Shown: one piece after another, positions 8,515 to 50,606 of the stretch
Layout: the number at the start of each line of letters is the position of its first letter
How positions within the stretch are numbered: position 1 is the first letter of the stretch
Assembly (NCBI GenBank): GCA_030608565.1
Contig: JAUWDY010000008.1
Location: forward strand, 1-50,606
DNA length: 50,606 bases
Reading direction: 5' to 3'
Source: Candidatus Bathyarchaeota archaeon
Lineage (GTDB): Archaea; Thermoproteota; Bathyarchaeia; Bathyarchaeales; Bathyarchaeaceae
Notes under the pieces: generated by a model
Told to the model about the DNA's origin: nothing
Database searches by the model: none
The model's input: the letters and a program-made list of their open reading frames with translations, nothing else
Position numbers and translations under genes: made by a program

Positions 8515-9531
8515 TTGGCTACAGTTCGGGTTCGAGGCATCTACTCAACCGCCCTAACGAAACTTCTTCTCGACCACAACTTCACCATAGTTAAATCATC
8601 AGCCACCATAAACGAAAGGTTCAGACTGGAAGAACTCGACGAGCCACCTGACCTCGACGTCTACGATCGATCTGACCTGCAAGGGGTTCAAGTCTGCGGA
8701 AAAGTCGAATCCATAAACGCATTCAAGTCCATCTTGCAGTCCAACCTTGACGACGTTGTTGTCAGGGAATGGCATACTGCGGCTCCGCATCCGCTGGCTG
8801 GCGTATTGGGCGGCAAGAGAATCAACCTTGTGAAAGAAGGAGAATCCGCGATAGATGTGGAGTTTCCTGCCTTGTCAAAGAAGAAACTGGATGAGCTTCG
8901 AAGTACCGTTGCCCCCACGCTAGACGGACACCATTACTACAAGGCTTGCGGAGAAATGGTTTCATCGGCACTCGATATGGCTGAGAAGATGCTCGAGAAA
9001 GGTTGTTCACGTGTAGATGTGGAACATCTTTTCAAACAAACCATTGAAGCAAACTATCCACGGGTGGGTTCCTTAATAGATATAGAACACGTGAAACTAG
9101 ACGGCCAAGTCTTCAACCTCGGAAAAGCCTCGATTGAAGCTTTCAACCACAATAAATCGTTCATTCAGCTCAGCCGAGTTTTCAAAACCGCAGGAGTATA
9201 TGACGGTCTTAAAACACGCAAAGCGCCCGATGACTACGCTGTCACCGAAGTCAAACTTGGAGAATGGCACTACAAAACCCAATATTTCTCAAAAAACGGA
9301 CGATACAAAGGAGCTTACATCAACCTAAACACGCCGATAGAACTGTACCCATATGGAATTCGCTACGTAGACTTGGAAGTGGACGTTTGCGTTTGGCCGA
9401 ACGGTCGGGTTAGGGTGCTAGATGAGAAAAAGCTTGAAGACGCAGCTACAGAAGGCTTAATCACGCGGAAATTAGTTAAAAGTGTCAAGAAAAAACTGCG
9501 AGAACTTGTGAAAGAACTTTCATACCGCTAG
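8515..9531 (+). CDS. fau-1: Probable ribonuclease FAU-1 (RNase E/G-like, DUF402)
   Basis: Archaeal RNA-binding protein related to the S1-like/DUF402 part of RNase E/G; family members bind AU-rich RNA and act on rRNA precursors. The N-terminal half begins ATVRVRGIYSTALTKLLLD, an S1-type strand set. The C-terminal DUF402 region shows GAYINLNTPIELYPYGIRYV followed by DLEVDVCVWP, then a helical tail. At 338 residues it is slightly shorter than the roughly 450 of some homologues. It starts with TTG; AAGGAGG at 8497-8503 lies about 11 nt upstream. It is likely cotranscribed with rtcA. Confidence 0.85.
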   Translation: MATVRVRGIYSTALTKLLLDHNFTIVKSSATINERFRLEELDEPPDLDVYDRSDLQGVQVCGKVESINAFKSILQSNLDDVVVREWHTAAPHPLAGVLGGKRINLVKEGESAIDVEFPALSKKKLDELRSTVAPTLDGHHYYKACGEMVSSALDMAEKMLEKGCSRVDVEHLFKQTIEANYPRVGSLIDIEHVKLDGQVFNLGKASIEAFNHNKSFIQLSRVFKTAGVYDGLKTRKAPDDYAVTEVKLGEWHYKTQYFSKNGRYKGAYINLNTPIELYPYGIRYVDLEVDVCVWPNGRVRVLDEKKLEDAATEGLITRKLVKSVKKKLRELVKELSYR

Positions 9532-9608
9532 ACAATGCGCTGGAGGCGGAAGAATGAGTAGTAAACAATATAAGTCTCTTTAGGTCCAACGTTTTTAAGG
9601 TTGAGTCC

Positions 9609-10568
9609 ATGAGTAGCTTATGGAAACTCCGATTCTCTATGTTCGGAACCTTATCTGTCATCATTGGACTGTCAACACTCTTTTTTGCGGGTGTCCTCTA
9701 CATGACTGGCATAAGCTTCATGGTGTTACCCTTCATCATCGTAGCATTTAACATTGGTCAGTGGCTGTTTGCTCCGCGTCTCATAGATGCTATGTACCGA
9801 GTGAAAGAAGTGTCAAGATCAGATAATCCCGAATTGTACGAGACGGTGGAGAGGTTAAGCAAAAAGAGCGGCATCAAAATGCCAAGAGTTATGCTAGCTA
9901 AAATTCCTTTACCAAACGCCTTCGCCTACGGGTCACCCATCGGCGGAACTAGAGTGGCGGTTACAAAGGGACTTTTAGAAACATTGGAGGCCGAAGAAGT
10001 GGAAGCTGTGATCGGCCACGAGTTAGGGCATCTGAAGCACAAGGATGTCCAGGTGATGATGTTTGTCTCACTTCTACCCGCGTTGTTTTATGCCATCGGC
10101 CTCTCTATGCTTTTTTCCTCTCGAACAGGTAGGGGTGAAAGGAGTGGTGGAGCTGCAATCATAGGCCTTGCCAGCATCATTCTCTACTGGATTCTCACCT
10201 TATTCACGCTATACCTAAGTCGCTTGCGTGAATACTACGCTGATCGCCACACCGCCATGATAGTTGAAGATGGTCCTCGAAAGCTTTCTGAAGGCTTAGC
10301 AAAAATCGTACGTTCAACTGGAAGGATGAAAAAACATCGTCGAGGTACCAGCGGTTCCAGCTCGCTTAAAAGCCTCTTCATAACAGATCCTGATCGCGCA
10401 GACTTGGATGCAACGTCTATGAGACAGGCTGGAGTGTACTCTACTGATCGAAAGCTTGTTGAGGACGTTCTTAGAAGAAAAATAACAACGTTGGATAGGG
10501 TAATGGAGTTCTTTTCCACTCACCCTAACATAGTTAAACGTCTGAAGGCACTGCAAGAACTAGCATAA
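9609..10568 (+). CDS. htpX: M48 family zinc metalloprotease, HtpX
   Basis: Membrane protease that degrades misfolded membrane proteins. The zinc motif HELGH is at 137-141 and the third zinc ligand is the Glu in SRLREYYADR near 210. Hydrophobic segments are visible at about 13-33 and 36-55 before the catalytic domain and at about 150-167 and 180-203 after HELGH, the HtpX topology. It has 319 residues. It follows the FAU-1 gene by 77 nt on the same strand and converges with hutH, with 22 nt between stops. Confidence 0.93.
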   Translation: MSSLWKLRFSMFGTLSVIIGLSTLFFAGVLYMTGISFMVLPFIIVAFNIGQWLFAPRLIDAMYRVKEVSRSDNPELYETVERLSKKSGIKMPRVMLAKIPLPNAFAYGSPIGGTRVAVTKGLLETLEAEEVEAVIGHELGHLKHKDVQVMMFVSLLPALFYAIGLSMLFSSRTGRGERSGGAAIIGLASIILYWILTLFTLYLSRLREYYADRHTAMIVEDGPRKLSEGLAKIVRSTGRMKKHRRGTSGSSSLKSLFITDPDRADLDATSMRQAGVYSTDRKLVEDVLRRKITTLDRVMEFFSTHPNIVKRLKALQELA

Positions 10569-19092: not shown

Positions 19093-19266
19093 TTCTTCAC
19101 ACCTTTTGAGATGGTAAAACAAGTAGTTAAGTTCACGGTTATTGATCTCGCCTTATTTTCTCACACGGGCATATGATTAGTTTTGTTGTTGTTAACACAT
19201 GAGATAGGTTTTAAATCCAAGACCTAAGCATGTAACTACCAAATTCGATTGCAAAAGGTGAGAACC

Positions 19267-20226
19267 GTGCAAGAACCTGTGATCGTCGTTCACGGTGGGG
19301 CCGGAGTTTGGCGAACTGAAAGAAAAAATCTTGGCCTTAGAGGTGTAAAAGAAGCTACAAAGACTGGATTCGAAATCTTGAAGAGTAATGATAGTGCCAT
19401 TAACGCAGTTGAAGCAGCAGTTGCACAGATGGAAGATAATGAAGTTTTTAACGCTGGACTTGGTTCAGCCCTAACCATCGACAAGCGTATAGAAATGGAA
19501 GCATCTATCATGGATGGAAAAACGCTTGACGCCGGAGCCACCGGACTACTAAGCGACATCAAAAATCCAGTTTGCTTAGCGCGAATTGTGATGGAAAACA
19601 CTGATCATGTGTTTGTTGTAGCGGATGGAGCTGAAAAACTGGCTGATCTTTTTGGTTTAGAAAGAAGAAATCCGCTTACAGAACTCCGGACACGGTATTG
19701 GCGTGATCTCAAGGAAAGGTTGATGCGAAAAAAGCTGGATTACCTACCAAAGTTGTACAAGCTTGTTTCCTCCCACTCGCAACTTTTCGAGCCAAGTACG
19801 GTGGGTGCTGTAGCGCTGGACAAAGATGGAAACGTGGCGGCGGCAACCTCTACAGGAGGATTTTCCCTCAAGTTTCCCGGAAGGATCGGAGACTCTCCTC
19901 TCATAGGATGTGGCACGTACGCGGACAATGAAGCTGGCGCCTGCTCTACAACGGGAATCGGAGAGATCGCTATCAAACTTGTTTTAGCAAAGAACACTTG
20001 TGACTCCATGTGCAGTGGAAAATCTGCGCAAGAAGCAGCTGAAAGTTCAATTAGACTTGTGAATCGAAGGATGCACAGTGGCTCTATGGGTTTAATTGCG
20101 GTGGACATGCTCGGCAGGATAGGCGCAGCACATAATTCTCCGAATCTCTGCTGGGCATACATGACGATGAAAACTCATCAACCAAAAGCCGGGTTGAAGG
20201 CAAAAATCGTAAAAGAGGCTGCCTAG
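19267..20226 (+). CDS. Isoaspartyl peptidase / L-asparaginase (Ntn hydrolase)
   Basis: Plant-type asparaginase that self-cleaves to expose a nucleophilic threonine. The start VHGGAGVWRTERK, the STVGAVALDKDGNVAAATST cleavage-site region (Thr of TVGAVA) and the GDSPLIGCGTYADN segment are diagnostic, followed by CSTTGIGE. The GTG at 19267 is preferred to the TTG at 19249 because AAGGTGAG lies about 5 nt upstream. A TATA-like GTTTTAAATCC at about 19208-19217 supports a single promoter. It yields about 319 residues, typical for the precursor. Confidence 0.92.
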   Translation: MQEPVIVVHGGAGVWRTERKNLGLRGVKEATKTGFEILKSNDSAINAVEAAVAQMEDNEVFNAGLGSALTIDKRIEMEASIMDGKTLDAGATGLLSDIKNPVCLARIVMENTDHVFVVADGAEKLADLFGLERRNPLTELRTRYWRDLKERLMRKKLDYLPKLYKLVSSHSQLFEPSTVGAVALDKDGNVAAATSTGGFSLKFPGRIGDSPLIGCGTYADNEAGACSTTGIGEIAIKLVLAKNTCDSMCSGKSAQEAAESSIRLVNRRMHSGSMGLIAVDMLGRIGAAHNSPNLCWAYMTMKTHQPKAGLKAKIVKEAA

Positions 20227-46960: not shown

Positions 46961-47033
46961 CACAACGATTTTATTCGAATTGGCAGACGATTTCGACGAA
47001 TGGGCCCGTAGCCCAGTTCGGATTAAGGCGCCG

Positions 47034-47059
47034 AGCTGTTCTAATGGAACAGCGCGTAG
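47034..47059 (+). other. tRNA intron 1 (position 29/30)
   Basis: 26 nt starting AGCTGTTC. GCTGTTC pairs with GAACAGC around TAATG. Adjacent 5' GCGC can pair with GCGT in the intron end, with three-base bulges CGA and AGG at the splice sites, which fits the archaeal splicing endonuclease motif. Confidence 0.65.
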
Positions 47060-47067
47060 GCCTCCGG

Positions 47068-47079
47068 ACGATGGAAGAA
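47068..47079 (+). other. tRNA intron 2 (position 37/38)
   Basis: 12 nt ACGATGGAAGAA after G37, leaving A38 before the GCCGG stem. It is at the canonical position; the central helix is short (TCC with GGA) and has a weak fit, so exact ends may shift by one base. Confidence 0.5.
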
Positions 47080-47118
47080 AGCCGGAGATCCGGGGTTCAA
47101 ATCCCCGCGGGCCCGCCA

Positions 47119-48168: not shown

Positions 48169-50118
48169 TTACATTCTCTCAGGAGCCTCTATTCCAAGGA
48201 GGTTTAAGGCGTTTCTGAGCACCATTCTAGTGGCGTCTACAAGAGCAAGTCTGGCATCACTCAATTCAACTGGCTCAGCTCCAATCACACGTAGTGCTGT
48301 GTAAAATGTATTGAATTTGTCGGCTAGCGCGTTAGCAAAGTCAGCTATGGTGTTGGGTCTTAGGTTCTCAGCAGCATCCACGAAAACCTCGGGAAAGCGG
48401 GCTAGCATTATGGTTATATCACGTTCTACGGGATTCGTCAACAAGGAGTAATCAGGGTTTTCGGGTTTTCTGGAAGCTTTTCTTAGGATGCTACACGCTC
48501 TAGCATGTGAATATTGAATGTATGGCGCGCTGTTCTTCTCAAAGTCTAACACTCGGTCCCACGTAAAAGCCACAGATTTCATTGGGTCTACTTCAACGAG
48601 AGCATATTTCATGGCTCCAATGCCGACGATGTCTGAGATTTGGCGTTTCTGTTCATCTGGCAAATGTGGAGATCGTTTCGAAACTTCTTCGTATGCTCTC
48701 TTGACCGCCTCAGTCATTACCTCGTCTAGAGTCACGTAGCGGCCTCTGCGGCTTGACATTGTGTATCCTGGGAGGGTGACAAGATTATAGGCAAAATGGA
48801 TCAAGTTTTTTGCCTGATCCCCATATCCCAGAGCATACAAAGCTAGCTTCAACTGTAACTGAGACAATTTCTGCTCCATCCCTACTACGTTAATCACTTT
48901 CTCGGCTCTCTGAAGCTTCCACAGACTGTACGGGATGTCACGGGTGGTGTATAAGGTGGTGCCGTCTGCTCTCACTAGAGTCAGAGATGGAAGCTCATAT
49001 CCCTCTCTCAAGCCTAACGTTTCTTTGAGATCAAAATCTCGAACAACTTTTTCTGCGTCAAATTCCAAAACGTTTCCAACGCGGAAAACGTAGGGGGTCT
49101 TCTTCAGCTGTTCAAGAGTTCGTGTAACGTCGCCGCTCCACGCTAAGCTACTCTCCCAATCCCACGAATCTAAGAAGATTCCCGCTCTATCAAGGGTTTC
49201 TCTAAAACCTTCGATGCAAAGTTGGCAGACTTCTCTGATCAATTGTTTTACTTCTTCTTCGCCTGCCTCATACTCACGAACAAAACTGCTCATTTTAGAT
49301 TCGGGATTCTTGTCTTTGTTAATTGCGTTAAGAAGTTGATTGAAGAGTTTGGGAAATCTGCCTTCGAGGTCAACTGCTACCGACGCCCAGTCGTCGAGTT
49401 CTCGTTGTAGCTCTGTAACTTCTTCAGCTGGCACAGATTCCTTTGTTTGTCCAACCTCTCTTTTGAGCCGTTGAATTTCTGTTATGCAACTTGTTGTTGT
49501 ATAGATTATCCCGATGAAGTGGTCGGGCTTTCCTTCAGGTTTGGGCTTACCGAGCTTTTCATATCCATAAGCTATGACTGCTGTTTGACGACCAACGTCA
49601 TCAACGTAGTAGTGTCGAAAAACCGTGTGCCCCTGAGCTCTCAGGATACGTGCAAGTGCGTCACCTAACACTGGGTTCCTCGCATGTCCGACGTGAATAG
49701 GGTGAATTGGGTTGACGCTGGTGTGCTCAACGATGATTCTTCTAGGCTCATCGGTCTTGACGTATCCATATTCAGCGTCGAGAATTCTGATTGACTCAAA
49801 TGTTAAGGATGAGAATTTTGCAAAGTTTGCATAGAAATTGATGTATCCCTCTCCAGCAGCCTTAACGGATTGAATTAATGGAAACGGTGATATGTTCACA
49901 GCCTTTACGATCTGTTCAGCCAATTGGAATGGCTTTTTTTTGGTTTTCTTAGCGAGTTCAAAGCATATAGACGAGGATAGTTCGCCAAACTGCAGGCTTG
50001 GAGGGATTTCAAATGTGATGGAAGGAACAGAAACTTTAGGAAGTATCTTGTTTAAAGCATCTCCTAATGCTATTTCGCATCCATTTCGGAATTCTGTAAA
50101 TGGATTAACAGAGGTCAT
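48169..50118 (-). CDS. argS: Arginyl-tRNA synthetase
   Basis: Charges tRNA-Arg. It has 649 residues. The class I signature HVGH appears in NPIHPIHVGHARNPVLGDAL; the KMSKS-like motif is MSSRRGRYVTLDEV; the C-terminal anticodon domain ends NALNLLGIEAPERM. The Add-1 N-terminal domain is present (about 1-110). GAAGGA precedes the ATG. Directly upstream on the same strand lies the 3' half of tRNA-Arg(GCG), so tRNA and synthetase were probably once cotranscribed. Confidence 0.96.
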   Translation of the reverse strand: MTSVNPFTEFRNGCEIALGDALNKILPKVSVPSITFEIPPSLQFGELSSSICFELAKKTKKKPFQLAEQIVKAVNISPFPLIQSVKAAGEGYINFYANFAKFSSLTFESIRILDAEYGYVKTDEPRRIIVEHTSVNPIHPIHVGHARNPVLGDALARILRAQGHTVFRHYYVDDVGRQTAVIAYGYEKLGKPKPEGKPDHFIGIIYTTTSCITEIQRLKREVGQTKESVPAEEVTELQRELDDWASVAVDLEGRFPKLFNQLLNAINKDKNPESKMSSFVREYEAGEEEVKQLIREVCQLCIEGFRETLDRAGIFLDSWDWESSLAWSGDVTRTLEQLKKTPYVFRVGNVLEFDAEKVVRDFDLKETLGLREGYELPSLTLVRADGTTLYTTRDIPYSLWKLQRAEKVINVVGMEQKLSQLQLKLALYALGYGDQAKNLIHFAYNLVTLPGYTMSSRRGRYVTLDEVMTEAVKRAYEEVSKRSPHLPDEQKRQISDIVGIGAMKYALVEVDPMKSVAFTWDRVLDFEKNSAPYIQYSHARACSILRKASRKPENPDYSLLTNPVERDITIMLARFPEVFVDAAENLRPNTIADFANALADKFNTFYTALRVIGAEPVELSDARLALVDATRMVLRNALNLLGIEAPERM

Positions 50119-50135
50119 TTTCCTTCACCATTTAG

Positions 50136-50180
50136 CGGGCCCGCGGGGATTTGAACCCCGGATCTCCGGCTTCGCAGGCC
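50136..50180 (-). tRNA. 3' half of tRNA-Arg(GCG), candidate attachment site
   Basis: On the minus strand this reads from GGC (29-31), loop CTGCGAA (anticodon GCG), GCCGG, AGATC, T-arm CGGGG-TTCAAAT-CCCCG, CGGGCCC and G. A CCA is not encoded (CTA follows). The 5' half with GGGCCCG is not found within the window. From 50135 to 50172 it is identical to the tRNA-Arg(CCG) over 38 nt. The break in the anticodon stem next to an integrase start is typical of a tRNA attachment site. Confidence 0.75.
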
Positions 50181-50606
50181 ATCTTTCTATGACTTATGAA
50201 CTTCCTTCATTTAAGGATAGGGAAACGTTAGTCAAGGATTTCTATCGGTTCTGTAGAGGTCAAATGAGCTTACGACATAGCACTGCTGAAACTCATGCTT
50301 ACTTAGTTGGAAAATTTCTCCGAGAGGTTGAAGGCCCGGTAAGTGCTGAAGTTCTTAGCGAATATCTACTTAGAATCAAAGAGCCTGGAACAAGGAAAAA
50401 CTATCTTAGTGCTTTCAAACGGTTTTTCAGAGACTTTCTGAAGCTTGATATAGTAAATGATTTCAAATCTCCTACACCAAACGATAATCCTACACCATGT
50501 CCAAGTGATGAAGATGTTAGGTTAGTGTATCAGAATCTTGAGTATGACCGGGATCGTTTGATTTACCTTATGGCCAGCACAGCTGGTTTACGTAGAGGAG
50601 AGATCT
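50173..50606. mobile_element. Left end of an element integrated at tRNA-Arg
   Basis: From the tRNA half to the right edge, carrying an integrase gene. The other end, which should restore a complete tRNA-Arg(GCG) on the minus strand, lies beyond the window. The nature of the element (virus, plasmid or integrative island) cannot be told. Confidence 0.6.
50189..50606 (+). CDS. Tyrosine recombinase/integrase (3' partial)
   Basis: Runs off the right edge; 139 codons visible. The N-terminal core-binding part (LVKDFYRFCRGQMSLRHSTA, ETHAYLVGKFLREVEG, TRKNYLSAFKRFFRDF) is followed by CPSDEDVRLVYQNLEYDRDR and the start of the catalytic domain, ASTAGLRRGEI, with the box I Arg. The ATG at 50189 starts 9 nt inside from the tRNA half; ATG 50264 is possible. 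No good ribosome site precedes 50189, so a leaderless transcript or different start may apply. XerA-like or SSV-like class cannot be fixed without the C-terminus. Confidence 0.85.
   Translation, partial: MTYELPSFKDRETLVKDFYRFCRGQMSLRHSTAETHAYLVGKFLREVEGPVSAEVLSEYLLRIKEPGTRKNYLSAFKRFFRDFLKLDIVNDFKSPTPNDNPTPCPSDEDVRLVYQNLEYDRDRLIYLMASTAGLRRGEI

Follow-up and report, generated by a model that had tools for sequence, protein, structure and literature searches.

The window analysed here is the whole of contig C37 (JAUWDY010000008.1; 50,606 nt), from a 1.76 Mb genome in 45 contigs (G000) of a Candidatus Bathyarchaeota archaeon. A tRNA-Arg(GCG) gene at its right-hand edge is represented by its 3′ part only, the 5′ part being absent. 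On one side of this fragment, across a gap of 16 nt, is the host arginyl-tRNA synthetase gene argS, whose closest named relatives are from Candidatus Bathyarchaeota (best CP070754.1, 83% identity). On the other side, a tyrosine recombinase gene begins with an ATG 8 nt past the end of a direct repeat and reads rightward until the window stops inside it, at 50606 (Table 1). We argue below that this is very probably one end of a cryptic element of ~4.83 kb, integrated between argS and lysS in the tRNA-Arg(GCG) gene of the host, with an SSV-type (type I, ‘suicidal’) integrase that was split by its own insertion.

The tRNA fragment at the window edge

ARAGORN found no tRNA in the window, and Rfam gave a single sub-threshold tRNA match at the fragment (26.1 bits). 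Against the complete tRNA-Arg(GCG) gene elsewhere in the same genome, the fragment gives a 51-nt match with 98% identity (E 2.6e-19), so it is not a chance resemblance. A preliminary description of the window had proposed that only the 3′ half of the gene was present, from position 29 onwards, with a tyrosine recombinase beside it reading outward. Our data agree on the missing 5′ part and on the recombinase, which reads toward the contig end, but place the start of identity to the complete gene at position 28, in the anticodon stem. A further tRNA, apparently intron-containing, lies at 47002-47115 (+), where Rfam scored 40.4 bits and ARAGORN missed it; its final 38 nt are identical to the 3′ arm of tRNA-Arg(GCG).

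Table 1 Features at the right-hand edge of the window; C30 is a second contig of the same genome.
Feature	Position	Strand	Details
argS (arginyl-tRNA synthetase), host gene beside the left attachment site	48169..50118	-	Open reading frame (ORF); relatives in 79 loci
attL, left attachment site	50131..50181		Direct repeat of C30:9826-9876, 51 nt with 1 mismatch; 50134-50181 exact, 48 nt
tRNA-Arg(GCG) 3′ part, probable host gene remnant left by insertion	50135..50181	-	Position 28 to 3′ end
Left end of the integrated element	50182..50606		Continues in C30 reverse strand, 14233 down to 9877
Start of int(C), the C-terminal part of the split tyrosine recombinase	50189..50606	+	275 aa including the C30 continuation to 13824

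The probable remainder of the element on a second contig

The last 76 nt of C37 match C30:14309-14234 (reverse strand) exactly and in the same integrase frame. After joining the contigs at this point, the gene order on C30 comprises the rest of int(C) and six other candidate genes: a Fic/Doc protein (46.8 bits), a HepT-like protein (weak match), a small second tyrosine recombinase (195 aa), two unknown ORFs, and, at the far end, an 86-aa ORF with a ribbon-helix-helix (RHH) domain. Next to this last ORF is a complete tRNA-Arg(GCG) gene (C30:9796-9872; ARAGORN, gcg), followed by lysS. The element measures 4,833 nt, with a GC content of 37.9% against 44.2% and 43.3% in the flanks. No viral or conjugation hallmark genes were detected among its ORFs using Pfam, PHROGs and NCBIfam, which returned only recombinases, Fic/Doc, the weak HepT-like match and unknowns; these ORFs likewise gave no match to CcdB, and the 4.83 kb contain no recognised replication gene.

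The preliminary description had placed the body of an integrated element beyond the right edge of the window, and had called for its cargo to be annotated and for a complete minus-strand tRNA-Arg(GCG) gene to be sought together with a direct repeat 30 nt or more in length. The element was indeed located there, and the tRNA gene has the orientation foreseen, accompanied by a repeat that is exact over 48 nt. Two things had been missed: the element is very small, and the integrase frame at its edge holds just the C-terminal part, the whole gene having been split by the insertion.

The join between C37 and C30 is supported by the order argS, tRNA, lysS in the complete chromosome CP070754.1, where an intact tRNA-Arg(GCG) gene stands 16 nt from argS, and lysS lies on the same side of it as on C30. 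Two observations weigh against our reconstruction. First, lysS directly adjoins the tRNA gene on C30, but in CP070754.1 it is ~2.1 kb beyond the tRNA, past a PAS/histidine-kinase-like gene. Second, C30 runs past the 76-mer into a 0.8 kb truncated M14 zinc-peptidase frame (C30 (L063):14310-15109). Of the two joins found at the 76-mer, one must either be misassembled or represent a minority variant. The M14 tail has no other copy in the bin. A real M14-integrase fusion was considered and rejected on the grounds of the truncated domain and the lack of a second copy in the genome, and we judge it to be an assembly artefact or variant.

If instead the C37-C30 join were wrong, the integrase in the window would come from one element and C30 would hold another, related one, both in the same tRNA. 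This alternative gains something from the M14 join at the same 76-mer and from the 18 tyrosine recombinase matches in the genome, but we give it only a slim chance. The C37 join gives a complete integrase whose alignment to homologues is gap-free across the junction, whereas the M14 join yields a chimera broken within the peptidase domain; neither a further complete tRNA-Arg(GCG) nor another copy of the integrase was found; and the lysS and argS flanks agree with the gene order of the relative. As an observation in its own right, 18 such matches are many for 1.76 Mb, and pairs or more occur on C12, C9, C16, C20 and C30.

A single integrase frame across the joined ends

Joining the ends of the element in silico, and only this, produces one open frame of 358 aa that passes through the tRNA sequence: ...GKEGLAGPRGFEPRISGFAGHLSMTYELPSF... 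The encoded protein starts with a CcdA-like RHH region (1 to ~45). A linker for which the tRNA 3′ part codes in antisense (~65-80) comes next, followed by a SAM-like region for core binding and the catalytic region of a tyrosine recombinase. Pfam matches CcdA at 7-42 (29.9 bits, above cut-off) and, in the C-terminal half, Phage_integr_3 (PF16795; 44.5 bits, cut-off 27) and Phage_integrase (31.7 bits, above cut-off). The catalytic R, R and Y are present, and box II reads QMLR, relatives having Q, R or K there. In the integrated state, int(C) and the N-terminal part int(N), which is the RHH ORF, stand at opposite ends of the element, and the tRNA 3′ end falls 195 nt past the RHH start.

An AlphaFold model of the uninterrupted homologue from genome G150 (predicted local distance difference test score 85) has helices at 13-21 and 26-47, as in RHH proteins, then a low-confidence stretch at 48-72 that spans the tRNA-coded linker, and then a Xer-like recombinase fold. 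A fold search with this model gave XerA (5hxy, E 2.5e-11) as the best PDB match and also found the SSV1 Int catalytic domain (3vcf, E 1.2e-3), while the RHH part was unmatched; a PDB sequence search with the RHH profile gave weak matches only (best E 0.14, antitoxin Rv0298). The RHH assignment thus draws on the Pfam match and the predicted helices. Judging from the model, the attachment stretch probably encodes a disordered linker, which would explain how many different tRNA sequences could serve as targets without wrecking the protein.

We propose that in the circular form one frame would encode RHH, tRNA-coded linker and recombinase, with the attachment site attP lying within int. The 358-aa enzyme would recombine attP with attB, the 3′ part of the host tRNA gene. 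At one end this would rebuild the full tRNA gene beside int(N), which is the RHH piece and keeps its own promoter; at the other it would leave the tRNA 3′ fragment and int(C), as at the window edge. The RHH region may dimerise the enzyme and bind DNA, by analogy with the N-terminal part of IntSSV2, which controls multimerisation (PMC8371274). The tRNA fragment, the complete gene, the repeat, the continuous frame and the synteny are directly visible, as are the uninterrupted homologues and other split pairs described below; that the insertion was catalysed by the enzyme, and that an excised circle existed, is what we infer from the sequence.

Relatives across Bathyarchaeia

The 163 genomes of the order were surveyed with an RHH profile and an int(C) profile, which matched in 79 and 46 genomes, respectively, although stub counts vary with profile sensitivity. 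Uninterrupted RHH-tRNA-integrase ORFs occur in five other genomes: G150 (394 codons), G032 (383), G068 (362), G114 and G075, the fusion being N-terminally cut in G114 (first residues missing) and C-terminally cut in G075. Elements with tRNA repeats were found in the single-contig genome G025 (63 nt, 97%), in G079 at tRNA-Lys (44 nt, 100%), in G097 at tRNA-Gln (45 nt, 100%), in G156 (66 nt, 88%) and in G096 (29 nt, 100%); the G097 element has int(C) but gave no RHH match.

The RHH frame runs antisense into a tRNA 3′ end in 25 of the 30 best RHH loci. As the profile behind this count included tRNA-coded columns, we also counted a second set of 40, most of them found through the RHH part only, and 29 showed the overlap, at a near-constant 157-228 nt from the RHH start. 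The tRNA species in this second set are Ala, Gly, His, Leu, Pro, Ser, Thr and Tyr. With ~45 tRNAs per 1.7 Mb, we estimate a chance expectation far below one such overlap. The same arrangement is seen in six genomes outside the order.

These counts bear on whether the element could be of the classical pNOB8 type, with a whole integrase at the window edge and, at the far end, an unrelated RHH antitoxin or regulator running into the tRNA by chance. The frame from ATG 50189 (275 aa) does span the SAM-like and catalytic regions, and archaeal elements often carry RHH genes, as Sulfolobales plasmids do close to the integrase. Even so, this seems to us slightly less probable still than a faulty join, given the fusions in other genomes that carry the tRNA-coded stretch mid-gene, the recurrent antisense overlap at near-constant distance, and the agreement of frames across the attachment site. 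A split or fragmentary host tRNA gene, with no mobile-element boundary and a coincidental neighbouring integrase, is the least probable account and practically negligible: archaea do have split tRNAs and tRNAs with introns (PMC3293823), but the complete colinear tRNA-Arg(GCG) on C30 needs no trans-spliced partner, and a direct repeat accompanies integrase halves that are in frame.

Beyond the loci that support an insertion-split integrase, the survey gave several further observations. The genome of the window contains one more RHH int(N) stub (G000:C42:1034-1267, L181), which runs antisense into tRNA-Val(GAC) and has a related stub on G024:C17. No convincing tRNA fragment partner was found for the G000:C42 stub within 80 kb, and searches to tens of kb found no tRNA 3′ partners for five stand-alone RHH loci (G000 C42, G024 C17, two in G018, and G013) or for the tRNA-Pro locus of G002. 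On G068:C4 (L269), the uninterrupted RHH-integrase gene (9228-10313) is 10 kb from an int(N) stub at tRNA-Ala (19130-19411), the two sharing 90% identical DNA over 212 nt; these are possibly two tandem elements, an arrangement in which the junction between them would restore an intact integrase gene. Short ORFs with only the last 40-60 int(C) residues, including the catalytic tyrosine, occur across the order (e.g. G018:C1:57420-57545 and G000:C39:12748-12912) and are probably remnants. A protein pattern scan of GTDB contigs and IMG/VR found no close integrase relatives. A profile scan of IMG/VR matched two contigs, L206 and L207, of which L207 has no RHH. On the viral-classed L206 (IMGVR_UViG_3300031876_000127):89-988, an int(C) relative lies beside a tRNA-like 3′ fragment, and the integrase family may also serve viruses.

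A possible role for the RHH stub

RHH proteins ordinarily bind DNA as dimers. It is conceivable, though we hold the idea only tentatively, that insertion works as a genetic switch. The split would cut the recombinase half off from its promoter, and the freed RHH half, keeping its own, would become a stand-alone repressor of the integrase promoter that guards the tRNA against related elements; hosts would then retain the stub once the remainder of the element had decayed.

We looked for inverted repeats upstream of the RHH start in all 75 sequences. Within 45 nt, 21 of them have such repeats at p ≤ 0.05, where 3.8 were expected; in the next 40 nt upstream, the number is five. Near-perfect palindromes just 5′ of the start codon, candidate operators, are seen at L302, L235, L304, L342, L323 and L352, with ACCTTTGTATGCAAAGGT and CTGTATATACAG as examples. 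The ratio of nonsynonymous to synonymous changes (pN/pS) between RHH copies is 0.10-0.48, also for pairs that sit at tRNA-His loci between conserved host flanks, and the genomes of the tRNA-His pairs, G026 and G013, gave no match to the int(C) profile. At RHH remnants that stand alone, the palindromes resembling operators and the signs of purifying selection hint that the integrase may become a repressor on integration. Against this, selection could act on mobile copies as parts of active integrases, and the tRNA-His pairs may reflect repeated insertion at the same tRNA.

Significance and comparison with known systems

Suicidal integrases have been described mainly from hyperthermophiles, namely Sulfolobales, Thermococcales and a few others (PMC8371274). 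The split architecture itself is already known from SSV1, pTN3 and pT26-2 (PMC8371274) and from a thaumarchaeal cryptic element (PMC6563490). We found no report in the open-access literature of an RHH N-terminus on such integrases, nor of such a family in Bathyarchaeia. This large family of relatives across Bathyarchaeia, at tRNA genes and with a different N-terminal domain, bears on the question of how an element can persist when it destroys its own integrase. Stubs annotated as CcdA-like antitoxins beside archaeal tRNAs may be integrase N-termini; a provirus of Bathyarchaeia has a reported ‘CcdA antitoxin’ (PMC11705971) that might be an int(N) of this kind. In our element the RHH part resembles the CcdA antitoxin (PF07362) in matching above the Pfam cut-off, but differs from it in forming an integrase N-terminus, with no CcdB detected on the element.

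In pNOB8-type elements the integrase stays whole after insertion, unlike the arrangement here. The pTN3 and pT26-2 integrases of Thermococcales and others share the suicidal architecture, tRNA targets and PF16795 (PMC8371274), and come from plasmids or viruses of hyperthermophiles. Thaumarchaeal cryptic integrated elements are likewise islands defined by an integrase and lacking viral or conjugation hallmark genes, and one of them, NitEve-E3, has a split SSV1-like integrase, but their median size is 17 kb (PMC6563490), against 4.83 kb and no recognised replication gene here. With an integrase and attachment repeats but no viral or conjugation hallmark genes, the present element is likewise a cryptic integrated element.

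The closest parallel is the type I integrase of SSV1 and other fuselloviruses, in which the attachment site lies inside int, the 3′ part of a tRNA gene is the target, and the gene is split on insertion (PMC3293823). SSV1 likewise targets tRNA-Arg, at a 44-bp site that its record places ~190 nt into int, compared to the 195 nt given above; both proteins have the PF16795 catalytic domain, the R...R...Y residues align, and the tRNA-coded stretch of the 358-aa frame aligns with the same stretch of the SSV1 integrase. The N-terminus of SSV1 and SSV-RH is PF07935, which is replaced here by the CcdA-like RHH; the SSV1-type signature is R...KxxR...Y, as against a Q-initial box II (QxxR); the SSV-RH integrase is ~25% identical, in the recombinase part only; and no fuselloviral genes were found in this element. 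Judged by sequence features, the integrase therefore falls outside the SSV1-like family in the strict sense, as PF07935 and KxxR are missing, but belongs among type I (suicidal) integrases in the broad sense, with a site within int, a tRNA 3′ target that is rebuilt, and PF16795.
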